This document shows, piece by piece, positions 912 to 30,065 of a DNA stretch of 30,065 nt. The notes under the pieces were generated by a model. The model saw only the letters and a program-made list of their open reading frames with translations. It ran no database searches and was not told the DNA's origin. This DNA comes from a virus. The stretch spans positions 1-30,065 of IMG/VR virus record IMGVR_UViG_3300006802_000353; one strand, written 5' to 3'. A program made the translations under genes and the position numbers. The stretch's first letter is position 1; each line of letters starts with the position of its first letter.

Positions 912-1355
912 TTACTTTTCATCCATTATTTTTATATATTCATAAGATGGCCTCCCCTTCGATCCCTTCACAATTAATTTTTTGATTTTTCCATCATCAA
1001 TCAAAAAATCTAAAGCCTTTTTAAATTTTGAATATGAACACGAAGAATAATGATTTCTTAACCCACTTGAAGAAATAGAATCGGGGTACGAAGCTTCTAT
1101 ATGGTCTAGTAATTCCCATGCCAGTTTTTCAATAGCATCTACACTTCCACTATATGCTATTTTGCCAGCCACTATGAATTTTACATGATCGGCATATTCG
1201 AGCCATTCAAGATCAACGCCAGCCCGCGCCGCATACTTCACCATCAAACTAATACCGTTATAGCCTCCCACGTCCTCCATAGGGATTTTAACGCTTTGCC
1301 ACTTTTTAAAAGTGGACCAGTCAATAGATGCATAATATGGAATTTTTTCGCTCAT
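912..1355 (-). CDS. Putative DNA-binding protein with winged-helix-like C-terminus, 147 aa
   Basis: The ATG at 1355 is preceded by GGAGA at a good distance. Residues about 90-147 show the pattern of a winged helix: a helix (SSSGLRNHYSS), a second helix (YSKFKKALDFLIDDGKI), then a beta hairpin containing KGSKGRPSYEYIKI. Comparable small wHTH units occur at the ends of phage and plasmid replication or regulatory proteins. The N-terminal 80 residues are not recognised. The gene borders the phased TAAAGGA array directly, with copies inside its own upstream region, so it is the obvious candidate to bind that array, either as an autoregulator or as an initiator-like protein. That link is inferred from position only. 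Confidence 0.7.
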   Translation of the reverse strand: MSEKIPYYASIDWSTFKKWQSVKIPMEDVGGYNGISLMVKYAARAGVDLEWLEYADHVKFIVAGKIAYSGSVDAIEKLAWELLDHIEASYPDSISSSGLRNHYSSCSYSKFKKALDFLIDDGKIKKLIVKGSKGRPSYEYIKIMDEK

Positions 1356-1391
1356 ATAATCTCCGTTATTAAAGGACTAATCCTTTAATTT

Positions 1392-1420
1392 CCTTTATCA
1401 GTCCTTTAAAAAGAAGTCAA
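1392..1420 (-). promoter_or_regulatory. Possible promoter for the 147-aa gene, covered by heptamers
   Basis: On the minus strand TTGACT (1420-1415) is followed after 17 bp by TAAAGG (1397-1392), a weak -10 match. One heptamer lies in the spacer and another is the -10 itself, so the site could be autoregulated. The -35 is good, the -10 is poor, hence modest confidence. Confidence 0.35.
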
Positions 1421-1450
1421 TAGAATTAAGAGAAATTTATATATAAAGGA

Positions 1451-1569
1451 TTATCCCTTAAAATATATATCTATATCTATATATATATTTATATATAGGA
1501 GTATGTTTATATGTAAAGATATAGGCATGGGGAGGGATAGATATACCGATACTAATTTTTAGGGGACAG
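1451..1569. other. AT-rich centre of the intergenic region
   Basis: Between the two single heptamers lies a stretch dominated by alternating TA and TATATC-like runs (about 1460-1525), then a short G-rich patch near 1528-1536. No gene is visible. A low-melting stretch flanked by iteron-like repeats is the usual arrangement of a DNA unwinding element, but it could equally be an AT-rich promoter region. Confidence 0.4.
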
Positions 1570-1669
1570 TCCTTTATTAATGTTAAAACATTGATTTTAT
1601 TATTAAATTAATTAAGGATTGTTAAAGGACAATAAAGGATTGATCACTTAATAAAATTTTTCACTTGCC

Positions 1670-2149
1670 TTGACCAGAAATAATGTGAAATATTATGGCA
1701 TGGAAGATGTTAAGCGTGTTTCTATAAGAAAGAAAAGAGGCAGGGGAAATATTAAAGGGTTCTCAAAAACCCCCCCACATGTGCCAACCGATGAAGATCG
1801 TGAACTTGTCAAAAGGTTGGTTGCTTTCGGAAATCGCAATGAGGACATCGCTGACATTATCGGCATTTCACACGATACGCTTACTAGATATTATAGTTTT
1901 GAAATTAAAGTTGGCCGCGCAGAAATCACAAGCCGAATCGCCAACAAGGTGACTACCCGCGCCCTATCGGATGATCACAAGGACGCACAACGCGCCGCCG
2001 AATACTGGCTTTCACGGCGCGGTGGATGGAAGGAAATCACAGGCCATGAACTATCCGGGCCGGATGGAGGGGAAATAGAGGTCAAACAAATTTCAGAAAC
2101 AGATCAAGAAATAATTAATCGGTTTCTTGCTTTTAATGAAAAAATATGA
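1670..2149 (+). CDS. terS: Terminase small subunit
   Basis: The protein would recognise phage DNA and hand it to the large terminase during packaging. After a basic N-terminus, residues about 40-75 form a helix-turn-helix (RELVKRLVAFGNRNEDIADI, then IGISHDTLTRYY), followed by EIKVGRAEITSRIANKV and the ending AEYWLSRRGGWKEI. This series is typical of small terminases of podoviruses and siphoviruses. It is the first gene of the rightward packaging block, three small genes ahead of the large subunit. The start is uncertain: TTG at 1670 gives 159 aa but has no clear ribosome site; GTG at 1685 and ATG at 1700 are in-frame alternatives that keep the whole HTH. Confidence 0.82.
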   Translation: MTRNNVKYYGMEDVKRVSIRKKRGRGNIKGFSKTPPHVPTDEDRELVKRLVAFGNRNEDIADIIGISHDTLTRYYSFEIKVGRAEITSRIANKVTTRALSDDHKDAQRAAEYWLSRRGGWKEITGHELSGPDGGEIEVKQISETDQEIINRFLAFNEKI

Positions 2150-3213: not shown

Positions 3214-4767
3214 ATGGAAGACAAATCAGAATTGTTGAAGGCAATTTGTCGCGAAAGTTTTTATTTTTACCAGCAAAAAGCCTTCAGCATTCTTGAACCC
3301 GGCGTACCTTATGAAGATAATTGGCACATCGAGTGCATAGCTGAACATCTTCAGGCGCTTCACGAAAATAGATTGCCGGATGGAAAAAAGCGATTGGCAA
3401 TTCTTGTGCCACCTCGCTCGCTCAAAACATTCATGGCCTCTATAGCGTTTCCTTCATGGGTCATGGGAAATCAGCCGTATCAAAAGTTTATTTGCACCTC
3501 GTACAAGTTTGATCTGGCAAAAGAGATGGCGCAGAAATCCAGAATCATCATGAGTGATGAATGGTACACAAGCACGTTTCACGAAACGAAGATTGATGAA
3601 CGGCAAAACGAAAAGCATAATTTTTGGACAACACACCGAGGAATGTATTATTCAGCGGCTATGCTCTCTATTACTGGCCGGGGCGCTACATATTGCATTT
3701 TGGATGATCCAATCAATCCGAAAGAGGCAGTCTCTGAAACGATCAGGAACGATACAAACTCCACGATCAGGTCAACCATACCCACACGGTTTAACGATCC
3801 CAGAAACGCTAAGTGGATTTTAATTATGCAGCGATTGCATGACGATGATCCGGCTGGGAACATGGCAATCAAAGATGATCGTTGGTTTATTTTGAAATTG
3901 CCGGGTGAAAATAAAACGGGCAAGGATATCGTTTATGAATTGGGCGATAAGAAATGGATATTTAAAGATGGTGATTTGTTATTCCCACAGCGATTAACGC
4001 GCACCGTTCTTGATGAGTTGCGCGAAGATTTGGGGGAATATAACTATGTCGGGCAGATATTGCAGGAGCCAGCACCGATAGGTGGCGGCGTATTTCGTGA
4101 TGGATGGGTGCAACACTACGCCCAAGGCTCAATTAAGCCGCGTACGATGAATGTAGCCATTCTGGTTGATCCATCTGGCGGTAAGGAGTTAAACAAAAAG
4201 CGCAAGAAACTATCGGACTGGACGGCCTTCATGGTGGTGGGTTTGGGGACTGATAATAACTATTATTTGCTTGATATTATCAGGGACCGCCTGAACCCGA
4301 CTGAGCGGGTGGATACCCTGTTTATGCTCCACAGAAAATGGAATGATTTGTGCGGGAAGCCCCCTAAAGTTGGGTATGAAAAATACGGCATGATGGCAGA
4401 TACCCATTACATTGAGGCCAAAAAGAAGCAAGATGCCTATCATTTCCCGCTTGTGGAACTGGGCGGGACGATGGCGAAAGAGGAAAGAATACGCCGTTTA
4501 ATTCCTGACATGCAAAATGGACGTTGGTATTTTCCACAAAGTTTGATATATGTAGATGGTGAGGGAAGGCAATTTGATCTTGTCAAGGAAATAATTCAAT
4601 CTGAAATGGCGACATTTCCGAGAGCAAGATTCGATGATATGCTGGATGCCCTTTCAAGAATATATGAAACTGATTTAAGTATGTCTTTTCCAAAGCCTAA
4701 TTTGACGATGACGCAAAAGGCCTATTTGCCAAAGTCAAAAGAATATACCGATTATATGGATTTTTAA
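3214..4767 (+). CDS. terL: Terminase large subunit (ATPase and nuclease)
   Basis: This is the packaging motor that pumps DNA into the prohead and cuts concatemers. The ATPase half holds a non-classical Walker A (VPPRSLKT, 65-72), Walker B (CILDDP, 161-166) and a coupling motif with QR at 206-207. The RNase H-like nuclease half has acidic residues at D319 (ILVDPSGG), D335 (LSDWTA), the YEKYGMMAD segment at 388-396 and D475/D478 (DDMLDAL). The length of 517 aa is normal for the family. The stop shares one base with the portal start (TAATG), so the two are coupled. The Walker A with PPRSLKT in place of GxxxxGKT is common in this terminase group. Confidence 0.93.
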   Translation: MEDKSELLKAICRESFYFYQQKAFSILEPGVPYEDNWHIECIAEHLQALHENRLPDGKKRLAILVPPRSLKTFMASIAFPSWVMGNQPYQKFICTSYKFDLAKEMAQKSRIIMSDEWYTSTFHETKIDERQNEKHNFWTTHRGMYYSAAMLSITGRGATYCILDDPINPKEAVSETIRNDTNSTIRSTIPTRFNDPRNAKWILIMQRLHDDDPAGNMAIKDDRWFILKLPGENKTGKDIVYELGDKKWIFKDGDLLFPQRLTRTVLDELREDLGEYNYVGQILQEPAPIGGGVFRDGWVQHYAQGSIKPRTMNVAILVDPSGGKELNKKRKKLSDWTAFMVVGLGTDNNYYLLDIIRDRLNPTERVDTLFMLHRKWNDLCGKPPKVGYEKYGMMADTHYIEAKKKQDAYHFPLVELGGTMAKEERIRRLIPDMQNGRWYFPQSLIYVDGEGRQFDLVKEIIQSEMATFPRARFDDMLDALSRIYETDLSMSFPKPNLTMTQKAYLPKSKEYTDYMDF

Positions 4768-6908: not shown

Positions 6909-8281
6909 TGGATGGCGATAGCGCATATGAAATTGCCGTCAATCAAGGCTTTACAGGTACGGAAGAAGATTGGCTTGAATCCCTGAAAGTAAAGGGAGAC
7001 AAAGGCGATAAAGGAGAAAAAGGCGATAAAGGCGACATCGGCCCGGAGGGGCTGCCCGGTAAGGATGGAATTGATGGGAAAGACGGGAAAGACGGGTTTT
7101 TGGGGAAAAAAAGCGGATACGAGACTGACCTTGGAAAGATCGTGGGCCATGCGATTGGTGGCACGGTGGAGAAAACCGTAAACGAAAAAATTAATTTTAT
7201 TGTTAATTCCGGCGCATTAAATGGCAAGGACGGAGTTAAGGGCGAAAAAGGGGAAAAGGGCGATAAGGGAGACCGAGGAGAAAAGGGAGACCCCGGCCCA
7301 AAAGGTAATGATGGCAAAGACGGCAGGGGAATTCAAGGTATTCAGGGATTGCCGGGTAAAGATGGCAAGGATGGTAAAGACGGAGATGATGGCAAATCCG
7401 CTTATGAATTGTGGAAGGATTCGGGCAACAAGGGAACGATAGAAGATTTCTTCCAAGAGATTGTCCGTCAGGGCTGGGGAAAGTATGGCGGTTTGTTCAC
7501 TTCAAACCAAACCATTCAGAATATCACGGGGTTGTTAGAGGCCGGGACTAATATCACAATTACAGGTGCGGGGACTAGGGCTAGTCCTTATGTTATCAAT
7601 GCCTCTGGCGGCGGCGTAACAGATGGCGATAAGGGTGATATTACTGTATCTGGATCGGGTACTGTATGGACTATTAATGCTGGTGCTGTTGCGATTTCAG
7701 ATGTCACTGGTCTGCAAACTGCGCTCGATGGGAAGCAGCCATTGGCTACCGTCCTGACGAACACCACGGCGGCATTTACCACGGCGCAGGAAACGAAGCT
7801 GGCCGGGATTGCAACGGGTGCGACGGCAAACAGTCCAGATTCTTTTTTGCTTGACAGGGCAAACCACACTGGTGTTCAGGCCATATCGACGGTGACGGGT
7901 CTGCAAACGGCTCTGGATGCAAAAGCACCCCTGTCCAGTCCGACTTTTACGGGAACGGTGACGCTTCCGGCTGGTCAGGTGGTCAACGGTGTCACGCTGT
8001 CAACGGCACAAGGGACGAGCAATTTTTTAAGAGGTGATGGCACGTATGCCGCGCCGCCGGGGGGAGGCGTTTCAGACGGTGATAAAGGCGATATCACCGT
8101 ATCAGGCTCAGGGGCTACATGGACAATCGACGCGGGCGTTGTAACGACCACAAAGCTGGGAGGCGACATAACAACAGCAGGAAAGGCATTGCTTGACGAT
8201 GCTGATGCTGATGCGCAAAGAACAACGCTAGGTGCGCTTGGTTGGGGTAAAACTTTGGCAGCGGCATCAATTATAGGATAG
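6908..8281 (+). CDS. Collagen-like fibre protein
   Basis: The ATG at 6908 shares a base with the portal stop. Gly-X-Y triplets fill residues about 30-63 and 106-162 (units such as GDKGEKGDK and GKDGKDG), with one register break at GRG 139-141. Two copies of a capping module, SAYEIAVNQGFTGTEEDWLE (5-24) and SAYELWKDSGNKGTIEDFFQ (164-183), bracket the collagen part; similar modules are common in collagen-like phage proteins. The rest (from about 200) is fibre-type beta sequence with repeats such as DGDKGDITVSGSG, occurring twice. It probably forms a trimeric fibre. Its place between portal and scaffold rather than in the tail module hints at a head or neck fibre. Confidence 0.82.
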   Translation: MDGDSAYEIAVNQGFTGTEEDWLESLKVKGDKGDKGEKGDKGDIGPEGLPGKDGIDGKDGKDGFLGKKSGYETDLGKIVGHAIGGTVEKTVNEKINFIVNSGALNGKDGVKGEKGEKGDKGDRGEKGDPGPKGNDGKDGRGIQGIQGLPGKDGKDGKDGDDGKSAYELWKDSGNKGTIEDFFQEIVRQGWGKYGGLFTSNQTIQNITGLLEAGTNITITGAGTRASPYVINASGGGVTDGDKGDITVSGSGTVWTINAGAVAISDVTGLQTALDGKQPLATVLTNTTAAFTTAQETKLAGIATGATANSPDSFLLDRANHTGVQAISTVTGLQTALDAKAPLSSPTFTGTVTLPAGQVVNGVTLSTAQGTSNFLRGDGTYAAPPGGGVSDGDKGDITVSGSGATWTIDAGVVTTTKLGGDITTAGKALLDDADADAQRTTLGALGWGKTLAAASIIG

Positions 8282-8702: not shown

Positions 8703-9607
8703 TGTCTTTTGGTTTGCCGCAACAACCGAGAAAACAGTTTCGGGTTTTTTACGAGGCTGGGGGCGCGTGGCAACCATTTCACGTTCCGACAGAAGCGGAA
8801 ATGTTAATGATTTTGCTGATTGGCGCGGGGGCTGGTGGCGGATCTGGCTTTTCAGCAGCAGAAGGAAGCGCCAGAGGCGGCGGCGGAGGAGGAGGTAGCG
8901 CCGGACAGTTTAGAATGATTGTTCCCGCAGCGGTTTTACCGCGCACTTTGTATTTTCAAGTTCCTTCTCGTGGCGCAGCAGGGGCGGCAGGGGGACGCAC
9001 GTTTTGTTCAATCAGACCGAATACGGGGGCTGGGTATTGCCTCGGAGTTTCCGGGGCGGCGGACGCTGGCGCTGGTGGTACAGGAACAGGTGCGGCGGCA
9101 GGAGCAGCCGGGGCGGCCAGTACCATTTTTTCCCCCGGCTTTGGCGCGCTTTGTGTGCTTGGCCTATGGGTAGCGATTGCTGGTCAAGCTGGCGGCATTG
9201 GCGGGAACCAAACGGGAGGCGCAGCAGGAACAGCGGCCATAGCATCTTCTATGGTGACTTGCGGCGGGGGTGGTGGCGCTGGCCGTGCGACAGGTAACGG
9301 CGCGGTGAACGGTGGCGGGATAACTTCAAACATCACGGACTTATTGCCCACACTAAACGGAGGGACAGGAGTTGCGTCAGGGGCAGGCGGCGCAGGCGTG
9401 TCAGGAACGGGTTTCGGCCCTGATAATTTTGGCGATTTACCGCTTATTTTTGCAGGCGGCACAGGCGGCGGCAATGGATCGACAACCGGAGGAAACGGCG
9501 GGTCAACGGACGGCATAGGCTGCGGCGGCGGGGGTGGTGGTGCTTCGGTCACAGCCGGAACGGGTGGCGCTGGTGGGCCGGGCCGGGCTTATGTATGGTG
9601 GTGGTAA
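8702..9607 (+). CDS. Glycine-rich virion protein
   Basis: After a normal N-terminus (residues 1-45, with MLMILLIGAGAGGG) the protein is almost entirely Gly/Ala-rich, for example a run of seven glycines near residue 60 and GCGGGGGGAS near the end, closing with GPGRAYVWWW. This matches the Gly-rich domain known from phage adhesin tips and related secreted proteins, thought to form polyglycine-II-like packs. It is translated right after the 137-aa protein. Opposite-strand open frames here are artefacts of GGC/GCC-rich codons. An adhesin or capsid-fibre tip role is inferred. Confidence 0.72.
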   Translation: MSFGLPQQPRKQFRVFYEAGGAWQPFHVPTEAEMLMILLIGAGAGGGSGFSAAEGSARGGGGGGGSAGQFRMIVPAAVLPRTLYFQVPSRGAAGAAGGRTFCSIRPNTGAGYCLGVSGAADAGAGGTGTGAAAGAAGAASTIFSPGFGALCVLGLWVAIAGQAGGIGGNQTGGAAGTAAIASSMVTCGGGGGAGRATGNGAVNGGGITSNITDLLPTLNGGTGVASGAGGAGVSGTGFGPDNFGDLPLIFAGGTGGGNGSTTGGNGGSTDGIGCGGGGGGASVTAGTGGAGGPGRAYVWWW

Positions 9608-9655
9608 TTGCCTGTTGTTTTTATATAAGTTAATTATTTAAAATAGGAGATAAAC

Positions 9656-10531
9656 ATGAAGATTATGCAAGAACTTGAAGCTATGAAAAAAGAGATTGAT
9701 GAAGCTGAAAATGACAATGAAAAAGATGATGATCTTGAAAAAGAGGAAATCAAGAAAGAAGCAGATACTCCTATTGAAGACGATAAAAAAGACGATGGGG
9801 AAGAAAAAGAAGGTGAAAAGAGCGACGATAAGCAAGAAGAAGAAAAAAAGGCTGATGATGCAAAGCCTGAAAAGGATGAAAAAGAGCTAATTATTGCGCG
9901 TGAACGCCGGGAAAAGAGGGCGCTTGAGCGTAAATTGCAAGAAGCGGAAGACCGCGCAAGGCAATTGGCTGAAAAGCCTCAAATTGAGGAAAAAGAGGCA
10001 TCGGCTGAAGTTGACCCCCTTTTAGATCGTGTGTTGCGTCAGCAATTAAAGGCGGATGCAATGCGTGAATTTTCACGCTATGAAACTGAATTTAAACGGC
10101 CTGATGATTATGATGATGTGGCACTTCAATACCGGGCGCGTTTGTATGAAAATTTGAGGTTTGATAACCCTCGCTTGCCGCATGAAGAACTTTTGGAAAT
10201 GACCGCCGAGGCGTTGCTTGTTAAGGCTTCTCGGTATGTTGAAAAAGGGCTTAATCCGGCAGAGGAATTATACGCGGATGCAAAGTCTATGGGCTATTCC
10301 AAGATGAAAAAAGAAGAGGAAAAGGAATCTGTGCCAGACGAAATAAAGCCTGACCTTAAAAAGGTTGCGGCGAATAAAGCAAGGAATGCAGGGACTGCCG
10401 GGGCTTCTGGGCGCGGTTCCAATCCTGATTTGACAGTTGCCGGAGCTGCTTCATTATCTCCTAAGGAGTGGTCTCGCCTTCCAAGATCAGAGCGTGAGAG
10501 GATTTTACGTGAAGCAAATATCCGGGCTTGA
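9656..10531 (+). CDS. Scaffolding protein
   Basis: AGGAG lies 7 nt before the ATG at 9656. Residues 1-80 are extremely charged (Asp/Glu/Lys blocks), followed by a helix-rich coiled-coil part (RERREKRALERKLQEAEDRA, near 82-101), a folded middle with HEELLEMTAEALLVKASRYV, and a basic C-terminal segment ending WSRLPRSERERILREANIRA. Acidic-coil-basic design directly ahead of the coat gene is typical of assembly scaffolds, whose C-terminus binds coat subunits. It would guide prohead assembly and then leave or be degraded. The terminator-like hairpin overlaps its stop codon. Confidence 0.85.
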   Translation: MKIMQELEAMKKEIDEAENDNEKDDDLEKEEIKKEADTPIEDDKKDDGEEKEGEKSDDKQEEEKKADDAKPEKDEKELIIARERREKRALERKLQEAEDRARQLAEKPQIEEKEASAEVDPLLDRVLRQQLKADAMREFSRYETEFKRPDDYDDVALQYRARLYENLRFDNPRLPHEELLEMTAEALLVKASRYVEKGLNPAEELYADAKSMGYSKMKKEEEKESVPDEIKPDLKKVAANKARNAGTAGASGRGSNPDLTVAGAASLSPKEWSRLPRSERERILREANIRA

Positions 10532-25885: not shown

Positions 25886-27595
25886 TCAAAAGGGAATATC
25901 AAAATATTCCTCTTCTCCTATCTTTTCTGGTTGCGGTTCATTGGAAAACTCATAATCAAGAATTTCGTAAAAATTACCCTTTTTCCTCGCATAAATACGA
26001 GATGGTTTCGGCCAGTTAATATTTAGAGCATCCTCAATTGTTTGCGGGGGGTCACTTATCATCCGGTCACTAGCCCATTGAACCGCTTTATTCCATGCGT
26101 ATCTGCGATTGTCTGTATGGATATGATGTTCAAAGCAAATCCATTCATTTATTGATCCTTGTAAAGTGTAATAACTGACCTTCATAGAAGGTGTCTTCCC
26201 TTCCTTTTCATGCTTTTTATAAAAAACATTGAGGACATTCAGCCATTCAGGTGGGATATCTTGGCTCATAATTGCTGCGTTTGCCGCCTCATCTTCAAGC
26301 TGAATAAAGCAATAAGAGCAAGCATAGCAATATCTTTGCGCGGCTGCGCATTCGGCACCACATGACGGGCAAATCTTCATAATGGCTTCGCCGCCTTCGC
26401 CTTCCTTTTCGCCGTCGTATTTTTTTCTAATTGATATTTGATCTATCGGGCCAAGGCTTGATACAACGCCGCCAAAATCTAAAATCATGCAATTGGGCTT
26501 ATGACTTGCGGCAATAGCTTCAAGCCTTCCCTCTTTTGTGCTTAAATCATAGCCGGGTGCATAGACAGGACGAACGCCACGGCCTGTTATCTGAACATAT
26601 AAAACGGGGGAACGTGTCGGGCGCATGAAGGCTAGCAAATCAATATCAGGGACGTTAAATCCAGTAGTTAAAACCGCGACATTGACAAGACATCTAATTT
26701 CATCCGTCTTTTCACTAAACCATGCAATCGTTTGCTTGCGTTCTTCCGGCGGTGTATCACCCGTAACAACTCTTACAGCAACTCCAAACTTTTTAATGTC
26801 TTCAGCGACATCATGCGCATGTTGAATTCCGGCTGTGAACACAAGCCATTTTTTGCGCGTTTTTCCGTGTTCTATTAACTCTTTAACGCACGCATTGTTT
26901 AATTCAGTTGTATTAATTCTCTTTTCAAGATCACCTATCACATAATCGCCGCCTCTTGTGGCAACGCCGGACACATCCATCTTTGTTGCAATTTGTGGGC
27001 ATACTGGCTTTGCCCAATACCCTTGCTCGATCATATATTCCATGCTGATTGTGTAGGCTACGCCATCAAATAGCTTATTATGGCCTTCATCCAATCGTCC
27101 GGTGTCTGACCTGTAAACCGTTCCTGTAAATCCGGCTACGATGCAATTGGGATTTATGGCCTTGGCCTGTTCTATAAATTTCCGGTATTGCGTTTCGCCC
27201 TTATGACTTATTAAGTGTGCTTCGTCGATTATAATAACTTCAGGGCATCGGTTTAGGCTTCCAAACTTATTGTAAATGCTCTGGATTGAAGCGATTGTGA
27301 TATCATTGTGCAGTCTTTTCTGTCCAAGTCCTGAACAATAAATGCCGTAATCAGAACCGGGGTAATGACCGTGCAATTCAGTGGCGCATTGCTCCAGCAA
27401 TTCCTTTACATGAGATAAAACCAAAATGCGCGTGCGCGGGTATCGTTCATGTATTTGCCGGATAAATTCACAAATCAATAATGTTTTACCGGATGCAACC
27501 GGGGCATCAATTAGCGGATTTTTCCCCGGATTGTTTTCGATCCAGAGCCATAATGATTTAATGGCTGCATCTTGATACGGTCTTAGCGTTTTCAT
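25886..27595 (-). CDS. DEAH-type superfamily 2 helicase with Cys cluster
   Basis: ATP-dependent strand separation or remodelling is expected. Seen motifs: Walker A APVASGKT (31-38), DEAH (124-127), motif III-like GFTGT (155-159), and motif VI QITGRGVRP (335-343). A cysteine cluster follows at C409, C412, C416, C423, C426 and C429, probably a zinc ribbon. The C-terminal domain (about 455-545; KVSYYTLQGSINEWICFEHH, then SRIYARKKGNFYEILDYEF) resembles the tail of other phage helicases of this type. Its ATG overlaps the methyltransferase stop (ATGA). It is probably used in phage replication, recombination or DNA repair. Confidence 0.87.
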   Translation of the reverse strand: MKTLRPYQDAAIKSLWLWIENNPGKNPLIDAPVASGKTLLICEFIRQIHERYPRTRILVLSHVKELLEQCATELHGHYPGSDYGIYCSGLGQKRLHNDITIASIQSIYNKFGSLNRCPEVIIIDEAHLISHKGETQYRKFIEQAKAINPNCIVAGFTGTVYRSDTGRLDEGHNKLFDGVAYTISMEYMIEQGYWAKPVCPQIATKMDVSGVATRGGDYVIGDLEKRINTTELNNACVKELIEHGKTRKKWLVFTAGIQHAHDVAEDIKKFGVAVRVVTGDTPPEERKQTIAWFSEKTDEIRCLVNVAVLTTGFNVPDIDLLAFMRPTRSPVLYVQITGRGVRPVYAPGYDLSTKEGRLEAIAASHKPNCMILDFGGVVSSLGPIDQISIRKKYDGEKEGEGGEAIMKICPSCGAECAAAQRYCYACSYCFIQLEDEAANAAIMSQDIPPEWLNVLNVFYKKHEKEGKTPSMKVSYYTLQGSINEWICFEHHIHTDNRRYAWNKAVQWASDRMISDPPQTIEDALNINWPKPSRIYARKKGNFYEILDYEFSNEPQPEKIGEEEYFDIPF

Positions 27596-28584
27596 GAAGA
27601 TAATTTTTCAAATAAATCTGCACTTTGTGAAACAAGAGCATCATCCTTCAAGTTTTTTAATGCTTGATAGTAATAAGCTGGATTTAATTCTGTACCAATG
27701 AATTTACGTTTATTCCTTAAAGCAACAACGCCTTCGCTACCAACTCCCATAAATGGAGAATAAATAACATCTCCTTCATTCGACCAAAGACGAATTGCCC
27801 TTTCAGTAACGTTAAGAGGCATTGGGCAAAGGTGTTTTTCCGCCTTTTCATCACGTGCAGATTTTACATTTAAAACATCAGTAGCCGGCATATCACCGTC
27901 CCCATATCCTGATTTATTCAAGTTCCATACATGACTCCCATACGGCAATGCGACATCTTCATCTTTAAATGGCGCTCTCCATATCGGGCTTGCCAAATCT
28001 TGCCATACAGATAATGGAATATTTGTTTTTGGATGAATGACAGGCTTTATAAGATTTTCATCTCCATCTTTCGCCCACTTTCTGAAAACCAAAACATATT
28101 CAGGCATTCCAACACGGCAAAAGCTGGCATCGGCTTGAAAATTTTTATATAGAAGCCCATGTGCGTTTGTTTTCGCACGTTCTAATACAGGATCGCGGAA
28201 TATTGTTATTCGACAATGGAAGTCAAATCCCGCTTTAATATGCGCTTGTGTGCACATATCAGTAAATGGACGAATGCCAGAAGTTCCTGTTTCTGAACTT
28301 CCTTGATAATAGACGAGGTCTTTTACATGAATGGCAGATATTCGGCCCGGTCTTGTAAATCTATATTTTTCTCGGATTAAATATGAGTACTGCTCGATGA
28401 ATTGCTCATCGTTTTCAACATTTCCCATGTCGGCAATAGATTCACTGTAAACATACAATGATGAAAATGGAGGGCTATAAACCGTCATATCTATAGAATT
28501 GTCAGGCAAATTCTTGCTAAATTCAACGCAATCAGAAAGATACGCGCTGTAATTTTTTCCTTCATATTGATCTATTACTGACAT
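27592..28584 (-). CDS. DNA N4/N6 methyltransferase, beta class
   Basis: The enzyme would transfer a methyl group from S-adenosylmethionine to an exocyclic amino group in DNA. Catalytic motif IV is SPPF (37-40) and the AdoMet loop is SPFMGVGSEG (276-285), followed by FIGTELNPAYY with E299 as likely ribose contact; order IV before I defines class beta. SPPF is more usual in cytosine-N4 enzymes, but adenine is not excluded. The motif I start is SPF in place of the common DPF. It has no restriction partner here and sits between two helicases, so self-protection of phage DNA is the simplest role. Confidence 0.85.
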   Translation of the reverse strand: MSVIDQYEGKNYSAYLSDCVEFSKNLPDNSIDMTVYSPPFSSLYVYSESIADMGNVENDEQFIEQYSYLIREKYRFTRPGRISAIHVKDLVYYQGSSETGTSGIRPFTDMCTQAHIKAGFDFHCRITIFRDPVLERAKTNAHGLLYKNFQADASFCRVGMPEYVLVFRKWAKDGDENLIKPVIHPKTNIPLSVWQDLASPIWRAPFKDEDVALPYGSHVWNLNKSGYGDGDMPATDVLNVKSARDEKAEKHLCPMPLNVTERAIRLWSNEGDVIYSPFMGVGSEGVVALRNKRKFIGTELNPAYYYQALKNLKDDALVSQSADLFEKLSS

Positions 28585-28589
28585 AATAA

Positions 28590-29963
28590 CTATCCTTTCA
28601 AAAATGTTGGTAATTTTGGTTTTTGGTTTCCTTCATAAGCATGTTTTACAGTTTTATTTACAACAACTCTTTTCATGGCTTCCGCCATTTCAGATTTCAT
28701 ATTTTCGTGATCTTTCATTTTTCTTTGTATAACGTTATAAATTTGCATTTCCGTGTCGCTCATTACAATATGAGATTCAACGCAATTTTTTTGCCCAAAT
28801 CTCCAAAATCTACGCAATGCTTGATAATATTGCTCATAGCTAAATGACAGGCCTATAAAAGCTGTTTTGTGGCAATGTTGCCAATTCAAACCAAATCCGG
28901 CTAATTTAGGTTTTGTAATTAATTTTTTTATTTCACCATTAGAAAAAGCAGTAAGTAATTCTTCTTTTAGTTCAGATTTCATACTGCCGCGTATTTCTAC
29001 AGCATCAGGAATAACGGCAACTAAAGCATCAGCTTCGTAATCGGTATCGCACCAAATTGCCCACGTGTCTTTTGTATTGCACAACTCTGCAACCTTTGCG
29101 GCTCTGATTTCAGATGTAATTCTTTTTTCATTATGAATGGAAGTTGCAGATGTTTCTGGTATTCTAAAAAGCATCCCCTCAGATGCTCCATGAGATATAT
29201 CAGCTTCAACTATATGCTTAAATGTCTTTAATTCAGGCAATATAAATCCATCATCACAATATCCTAAATCGCTAGGTTTTGTCGCACAACGCGCCCAGCT
29301 TGCGACCCATGACCAGAAGTCTTTAATTGCGTATCCCTTTAATCGGTACCTTCCCATTTGTTCTTGATCAGCTATAAAGAATCTCGCCAGCATTTCATTG
29401 GAATCCATAGCCCCTAAAAATTGAGAATGTTGCCCAAGTTCCATGTGGTCATTTGGGGATGGTGTAGCAGTCGCCGCCAACTTCCATTTGTGCCTATCCC
29501 ATGCGGCCATTAGCTTTCGCGTAGTTGATCCGTTGTAATTCTTTATGATGGAGCTTTCATCTAATATTATTCCTGCAAAATCATCAGGATTGAATTTGTG
29601 CATATTATCGTAATTTGTAATATTAATTCCATTTACGATTTGAGATGATTCACGGATGAATTTTACATCAGCGCCGATTTTAAACTTTTCAGCTTCTCTG
29701 GCATGTTGTTGACCAACTGCCAACGGCGCTAACATTAAAACAGGCTTATTTTCAAGATAATTTACTATACGGCCATACTCCAAGCTGACTATTGACTTTC
29801 CTAATCCTGTATCAAGAAAAGCCGCGCTACGCCCACATTTCAAATGAAATTGAACACAATCAATTTGATAATCAAATAAATTACGGTTTAACGTTCCTTC
29901 ATAATTAGTTCCGCAATACGATGCAGCAATCTTTTTTGTTGCTAAAAAATCTTTATATTCCAT
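28590..29963 (-). CDS. SNF2-like helicase / translocase
   Basis: ATG at 29963 is chosen because AGGA lies about 8 nt upstream and the previous gene stops 10 nt before; an earlier ATG (30005) lies inside the repeat. Motifs: Walker A DTGLGKS (51-57), motif II DESS (135-138), motif III ATATPSPND (164-172), and C-terminal motif VI-like ALRRFWRFGQKN. The gap-filling sequence DLGYCDDGFILPEL is familiar from phage SNF2-like proteins. The 457-aa protein lacks extra DNA-binding domains. It would move along duplex DNA, possibly during recombination or replication, together with the neighbouring nuclease and helicase. Confidence 0.85.
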   Translation of the reverse strand: MEYKDFLATKKIAASYCGTNYEGTLNRNLFDYQIDCVQFHLKCGRSAAFLDTGLGKSIVSLEYGRIVNYLENKPVLMLAPLAVGQQHAREAEKFKIGADVKFIRESSQIVNGINITNYDNMHKFNPDDFAGIILDESSIIKNYNGSTTRKLMAAWDRHKWKLAATATPSPNDHMELGQHSQFLGAMDSNEMLARFFIADQEQMGRYRLKGYAIKDFWSWVASWARCATKPSDLGYCDDGFILPELKTFKHIVEADISHGASEGMLFRIPETSATSIHNEKRITSEIRAAKVAELCNTKDTWAIWCDTDYEADALVAVIPDAVEIRGSMKSELKEELLTAFSNGEIKKLITKPKLAGFGLNWQHCHKTAFIGLSFSYEQYYQALRRFWRFGQKNCVESHIVMSDTEMQIYNVIQRKMKDHENMKSEMAEAMKRVVVNKTVKHAYEGNQKPKLPTFLKG

Positions 29964-29973
29964 GATATTGATC

Positions 29974-30065
29974 CTATCCGTGGCATTCCATTGCGATATG
30001 GGCATATTTTACATTACGATATGGGCATATTTTACATTTAAAAAAATCTGGATTTTCACTAATAC
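29974..30065 (-). CDS. C-terminal end of a probable PD-(D/E)XK (RecB/Cas4-like) nuclease
   Basis: Only the last 29 residues are visible. They contain ENPDFFKCKICPYR and end in MECHG. A C-terminal Cys cluster of the form CxxC, five residues, CH is, to my knowledge, common in phage RecB/Cas4-like exonucleases, where it may bind an iron-sulfur cluster or zinc. Here eight residues (NVKYAHIA) separate CPYR from MECHG, and the DNA shows a 23-bp tandem repeat exactly there. The stop is 10 nt before the SNF2 start. The catalytic part lies outside the window. Confidence 0.5.
   Translation of the reverse strand, partial: ISENPDFFKCKICPYRNVKYAHIAMECHG
29994..30038. repeat. Two tandem copies of a 22-23-bp unit
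   Basis: The 22-bp unit beginning CGATATGGGCATATTTTA occurs at 29994-30015 and 30017-30038, perfectly repeated with a 23-bp period. Each unit includes ATATG-GG-CATAT, an inverted repeat with 5-bp arms. The copies lie in the end of the nuclease frame and just upstream of the SNF2 gene, so they could be a recent duplication or a paired operator. Confidence 0.8.

Follow-up and report, generated by a model that had tools for sequence, protein, structure and literature searches.

A mirror-symmetric TAAAGGA array between divergent operons of a tailed phage is a probable replication origin

IMGVR_UViG_3300006802_000353 is a 30-kb virus contig with no whole genome behind the record; its 30,065 nt, all of which were analysed, are termed the window. 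Near the left end a cluster of the heptamer TAAAGGA separates two divergently transcribed genes, and the question is what such a cluster is for. An earlier note on this DNA offered two readings, an origin of replication with iterons and an unwinding element or a looping operator that controls both directions.

The array fills the gap between two divergent operons. On its left is the gene for a 147 amino acid protein (positions 912–1355, minus strand), the first gene of the leftward operon, with faint hints of a C-terminal winged helix; the repeat sites start about 15 bp from its start codon. On its right is a terS-like gene (1670–2149, plus strand; PHROGs 309/12540; alternative start ATG at 1700), the first gene of a rightward late operon that continues through the terminase large subunit gene terL (3214–4767, plus strand). 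Leftward genes encode the 147-aa and a 171-aa protein at the left of the window, and helicases and a methyltransferase at its right (25886–30005, minus strand). In the latter segment an N6/N4 DNA methyltransferase lies between two SNF2/ResIII-type helicases, and this resembles a phage helicase-methyltransferase module. A sister contig, with 99.9% identity over the compared sequence, spans positions 1171–30065 and then runs 6.65 kb past the right end of the window, with genes for a 261-aa protein, DUF669, an AAA ATPase, RusA and a 755-aa Toprim-DUF3987 primase-helicase (L004:885–3152). The 261-aa protein occupies the position of the Cas4-like nuclease of Pseudoalteromonas phages H40/1 and C7. 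The stretch between the first base of the window and that of the sister contig is unsequenced, and no overlap of these ends was found. In a circular or permuted genome the array would be the gap from which the two operons run apart. Gene content is the basis of the labels “early” and “late”.

Eight exact heptamers and one near copy, with spacings of 11, 10, 11, 42, 126, 42, 11 and 10 bp, had been claimed for positions 1370–1639, and both the sites and the spacings were confirmed. The exact copies in the left arm are at 1370–1376 (plus strand, outermost), 1381–1387, 1391–1397 and 1402–1408 (all minus) and 1444–1450 (plus, inner pair); those in the right arm are at 1570–1576 (minus, inner pair), 1623–1629 and 1633–1639 (both plus). 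The near copy is TTAAGGA at 1612–1618 (plus). The excess over chance also holds: in dinucleotide shuffles of positions 1340–1680 (n = 3000) the expected number of TAAAGGA copies is 0.25 and the maximum 3, and heptamers with at least two G/C reach at most 5 copies. The whole window has 16 copies of TAAAGGA where 4.4 are expected. The count that the earlier note proposed, made over the window, shows the copies outside the array to be single, and there is no second cluster in the window or on the sister contig, including its extra 6.65 kb. A scan of the window with an array detector, whose scores are a Poisson approximation and raw with respect to the number of words tested, gave this locus as the only strong mixed-strand array. 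Two regions outscore it (7004–7284 and 9682–9993), both with short same-strand repeats (GGCGAAAA and GATGAAAA) inside long open reading frames that probably encode repetitive structural proteins. No Rfam match was found, and a terminator scan gave no more than shuffles did.

The near mirror symmetry around an AT-rich centre was borne out, and had if anything been understated. With one or two mismatches allowed, there are twelve sites in all, which form six mirror pairs of opposite orientation centred on position 1510: 1370/1644, 1381/1633, 1391/1623, 1402/1612, 1444/1570 and 1454/1560. The three additional sites are degenerate: TCCCTTA at 1454–1460 (minus, one mismatch) and TAGGGGA at 1560–1566 (plus, two mismatches), each of which completes an inner pair, and TCACTTA at 1644–1650 (minus, two mismatches). 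Between the inner pairs is a core of about 99 bp (1461–1559) with no exact iteron, a putative unwinding element; GC content is 24% over positions 1401–1600, in a context that is 57% AT. When only sites with no more than one mismatch are counted, four pairs share a centre, a number that 0 of 2000 random placements reached. The mirror runs without insertions or deletions across 281 bp. On reflection about 1510 the sites agree at 38 of 42 positions and the linkers at 25 of 54, against a chance value of 19.8 ± 3.2 (about 1.6 standard deviations above). Thus the sites are mirror-conserved while the linkers are barely above chance: the spacing has been held and the intervening sequence has drifted. 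The proposal of a shared helix face is likewise upheld for the ten best sites, whose phasing gives a Rayleigh R of 0.98 at 10.5 bp; R drops at periods on either side. Helical phasing is not general, being weak or absent in the arrays of other phages, and both the symmetry and the phasing of the window array are unusually exact among the arrays compared.

The earlier note asked whether relatives keep the heptamer and its spacing. Relatives were gathered by TerL similarity. In one of them, L006 (TerL 70% identity), a TATATA core is surrounded by 11 GTGTAAGG sites, and this array separates the late genes from a VapE primase gene; L009 has a TGGGACA array in the same position, and the divergent gap of MW202485, a phage reached via the primase of L009, contains a weaker GTGGCTATAG array. 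The array and its layout were therefore found again in L006 and L009, and the heptamer itself was not, its place being taken by GTGTAAGG and TGGGACA. Judged from these sequences, position and layout are conserved in the TerL lineage and the heptamer is not. In the partial stretches of TerL relatives that lack a VapE/DUF3987 match, no array was found with a score of at least 8 and at least 20% minority-strand sites, and a TerL scan of genome contigs gave a single distant match, in an alphaproteobacterial MAG. L006 also has, at 2232–2504, about 25 copies of a CGAGCAG-containing unit, mostly 9 bp apart. The iteron word TGGGACA/GTGGGACA is common to L009:5387–5665, from a metagenomic phage, and Pseudomonas phage U5 (L045:7193–7461); the primases of the two share only about 32% identity.

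The same layout recurs, beyond L006 and L009, beside Toprim/VapE-type primase-helicase genes in many phages: an outer cluster, 33–57 bp, an inner pair, a core of 70–110 bp, and the mirror image, with a repeat word that is mostly different. In a first comparison set, fetched by primase similarity, it was found just 3′ of the primase gene in Marinobacter phage PS3, Idiomarinaceae phage 1N2-2 and Staphylococcus phage phiSP15-1, and near the primase gene in U5. Two Jilinviruses have arrays about 2 kb from the primase; these (L060:9200–9521 and L061:8761–9057, GGTGACAA/GGTGACCA) lie downstream of it in an otherwise empty gap, and their word resembles the P4 iteron GGTGAACA. A less biased sample consisted of eight diverse VapE phage records taken from an evenly spaced match list. 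In six of the eight, the top-scoring array of the searched stretch is at the downstream end of the VapE gene or no more than 127 bp away from it, five of these with at least 20% minority-strand sites and the sixth, Streptococcus phage 040922, nearly one-stranded; in the other two, BV737P3 and SR18, there is no clear array at that end. An AT-rich core is not universal (exceptions are PS3, U5 and RcWhiteOak). Among phages with DUF3987 primases, arrays are weak in H40/1 and C7, and none was detected near the primases of CRP-901 and pCB2051-A, so that DUF3987 primases are less clearly tied to arrays than VapE ones. Lactobacillus phage LfeSau shows a second mixed-strand array (L189:22014–22265, TGTTACAC) far from its VapE gene, which may be a second element of the kind that P4 has.

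The heptamer itself turned up in another setting. A scan for three spaced TCCTTTA gave matches that, among those listed, were mostly short-period tandem repeats, and at least five contigs among the matches listed (L074, L101, L126, L146 and L178) carry a mirrored TAAAGGA array. Each has 9–10 copies, spaced 29-46-9-101-9-46-19-10-9 or nearly so. They share with the window the word and the mirror layout (46-9-101-9-46 in their case); they differ in that their arrays are directly 3′ of a BT4734/PriCT/VapE primase gene, in L126 and L074 about 3 bp past the 3′ end of a 722-aa one. In BLASTP these primases show no kinship to the window phage's primase.

The latter, the 755-aa Toprim-DUF3987 protein, has no VapE match, its helicase domain being DUF3987 and not of the VapE/D5 type. 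Its C-terminal region can be aligned among DUF3987 homologues and, on inspection, resembles a winged helix. Its gene is at least ~2.2 kb from the array even if the contig ends are joined. As for the 147-aa protein, no homologue was found in phages, PHROGs or Pfam, and in IMG/VR the sister contig alone has one; its AlphaFold model is of low confidence (mean pLDDT 44) and winged-helix-like. Its similarity to the C-terminal part of the primase (pairwise E = 0.13; E = 0.049 in hhalign) is not significant when ranked among 83 phage open reading frames and other primases.

Could the array instead be a looping operator, at which a regulator, perhaps the 147-aa protein, sits on both arms and so represses, or acts as a switch for, the two divergent promoters, early and late? 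Its place between divergent operons, its closeness to the 147-aa start codon, the dyad with 10.5-bp phasing, which fits looping, and a possible C-terminal winged helix in the 147-aa protein all suit such a device. In several phages, however, the same architecture lies between co-directional genes downstream of the primase gene, with no divergent promoter, and an early/late operator would not account for those arrays. Further, a scan for sigma-70-like promoters found no more sites than in shuffles. The idea that the 147-aa protein is the binder gains nothing from the recurrence, as no such gene lies beside the L006 and L009 arrays; the protein has, besides, no detectable homologue outside the sister contig, a poor model and the non-significant similarity to the primase. 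An operator function by itself is thus considered unlikely. It is somewhat less doubtful, though still a minority view, that the array is a shared element, origin and operator in one, coupling the start of replication to the early/late switch. In that case the 147-aa protein might be a separate winged-helix protein, related to the C-terminus of the primase and in competition for the iterons, for which the P4 copy-number regulator Cnr offers a comparison.

The position directly upstream of a terS-like gene raises the thought of a pac recognition site for the adjoining small terminase, and repeats can occur in pac sites, but in the sampled phages the architecture follows the primase-helicase gene and not terS, and this explanation is very improbable. 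Hardly more can be said for a decayed inverted duplication of a promoter region, in which the spacing would have no function. A 281-bp mirror free of insertions and deletions is what such an event would leave; against it, the linkers are so near to chance while the sites are not, and similar spacing recurs with unrelated words across lineages. This last reading is given the least credence.

The region 1370–1650 is probably a tailed-phage replication origin, with iterons in two inverted arms around an AT-rich core. Of the two readings first offered, the origin is the one that gained, because the architecture recurs at primase-helicase genes, even without a divergent promoter, and matches the Sfi21 origin and P4 crr; the operator lost ground. 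Counting against an origin are the primase gene that is not adjacent, the DUF3987 in place of a VapE domain, and a divergent promoter position that suits an operator as well. GC skew flips at the array and was left out as evidence, since the genes and the motifs reverse direction at the same place. What we infer for this locus is that it acts as an origin, which protein binds it, and that synthesis runs both ways. The phage's own Toprim-DUF3987 primase-helicase, which has the winged-helix-like C-terminal region and is encoded in the leftward operon, would bind the iterons, probably as two opposed assemblies. The bound protein would melt the AT-rich core, and bidirectional synthesis would start there, much as is thought for P4 alpha and SaPI Rep. 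The comparisons indicate that the layout occurs commonly among ordinary tailed phages that carry VapE/Toprim primase-helicases, across several bacterial phyla, and that the iteron word turns over fast while the spacing stays. This supplies a simple sequence rule for locating phage origins and matching them to initiators, with a bearing on origin specificity and satellite-phage interference.

It had been stated that no phage array of this layout is described. This is wrong in kind, the layout being common to the P4, Sfi21 and PICI origins; what is unusual is a perfect dyad together with phasing that is exact at 10.5 bp. In PICI origins an AT-rich region is always flanked by two sets of iterons (PMC6092414). 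Iteron binding by SaPI Rep and by Cch2 is through a C-terminal domain, Rep apparently acting as two hexamers (PMC7581432), and in P4 alpha a winged helix binds the ori repeats (PMC4234260). The window resembles PICI/SaPI origins (PMC6092414, PMC7581432) in its short iterons of both orientations, grouped in two sets around an AT-rich region, and in a dedicated primase-helicase as candidate initiator, the Toprim-DUF3987 protein. Its spacings fall inside the ranges of bipartite origins: 10 bp in the inner pair (7–10), then 42 bp (33–57) and a core of ~99 bp (~70–110). It differs in belonging to a tailed phage genome, in its word and stricter dyad and phasing, in a helicase domain that is DUF3987 and not VapE/D5, and in not being immediately 3′ of the initiator gene; the P4 ori, L006 and L009 arrays are also away from that end.

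P4 and Streptococcus phage Sfi21 served as positive controls. The detector's top match in P4 is crr, with ori third, and its top match for Sfi21, 9503–9757, is the annotated origin (L193:9488–9785). P4 ori has three direct repeats 10/11 bp apart, one inverted, then 43 bp and a pair 10 bp apart; each arm of the window has as counterpart 10/11, inverted, 42 and 10. Like the window array, P4 ori lies between divergent operons, and both genomes have a Toprim primase-helicase, which in P4 is the initiator. P4 differs in its word (GGTGAACA), in the order of the inverted site, in the helicase family, and in having two separate elements, ori and crr, where the window has both arms in one. The 302-bp Sfi21 element, reported to be active as an independent origin (PMC6356513), is likewise bipartite with an AT-rich core and belongs to a full-size phage; its inner pairs are 8 bp apart, with outer clusters 44/46 bp away. 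Unlike the window array, it uses the word GTAAC(T), is directly downstream of a VapE-like gene, and is imperfect in its symmetry.
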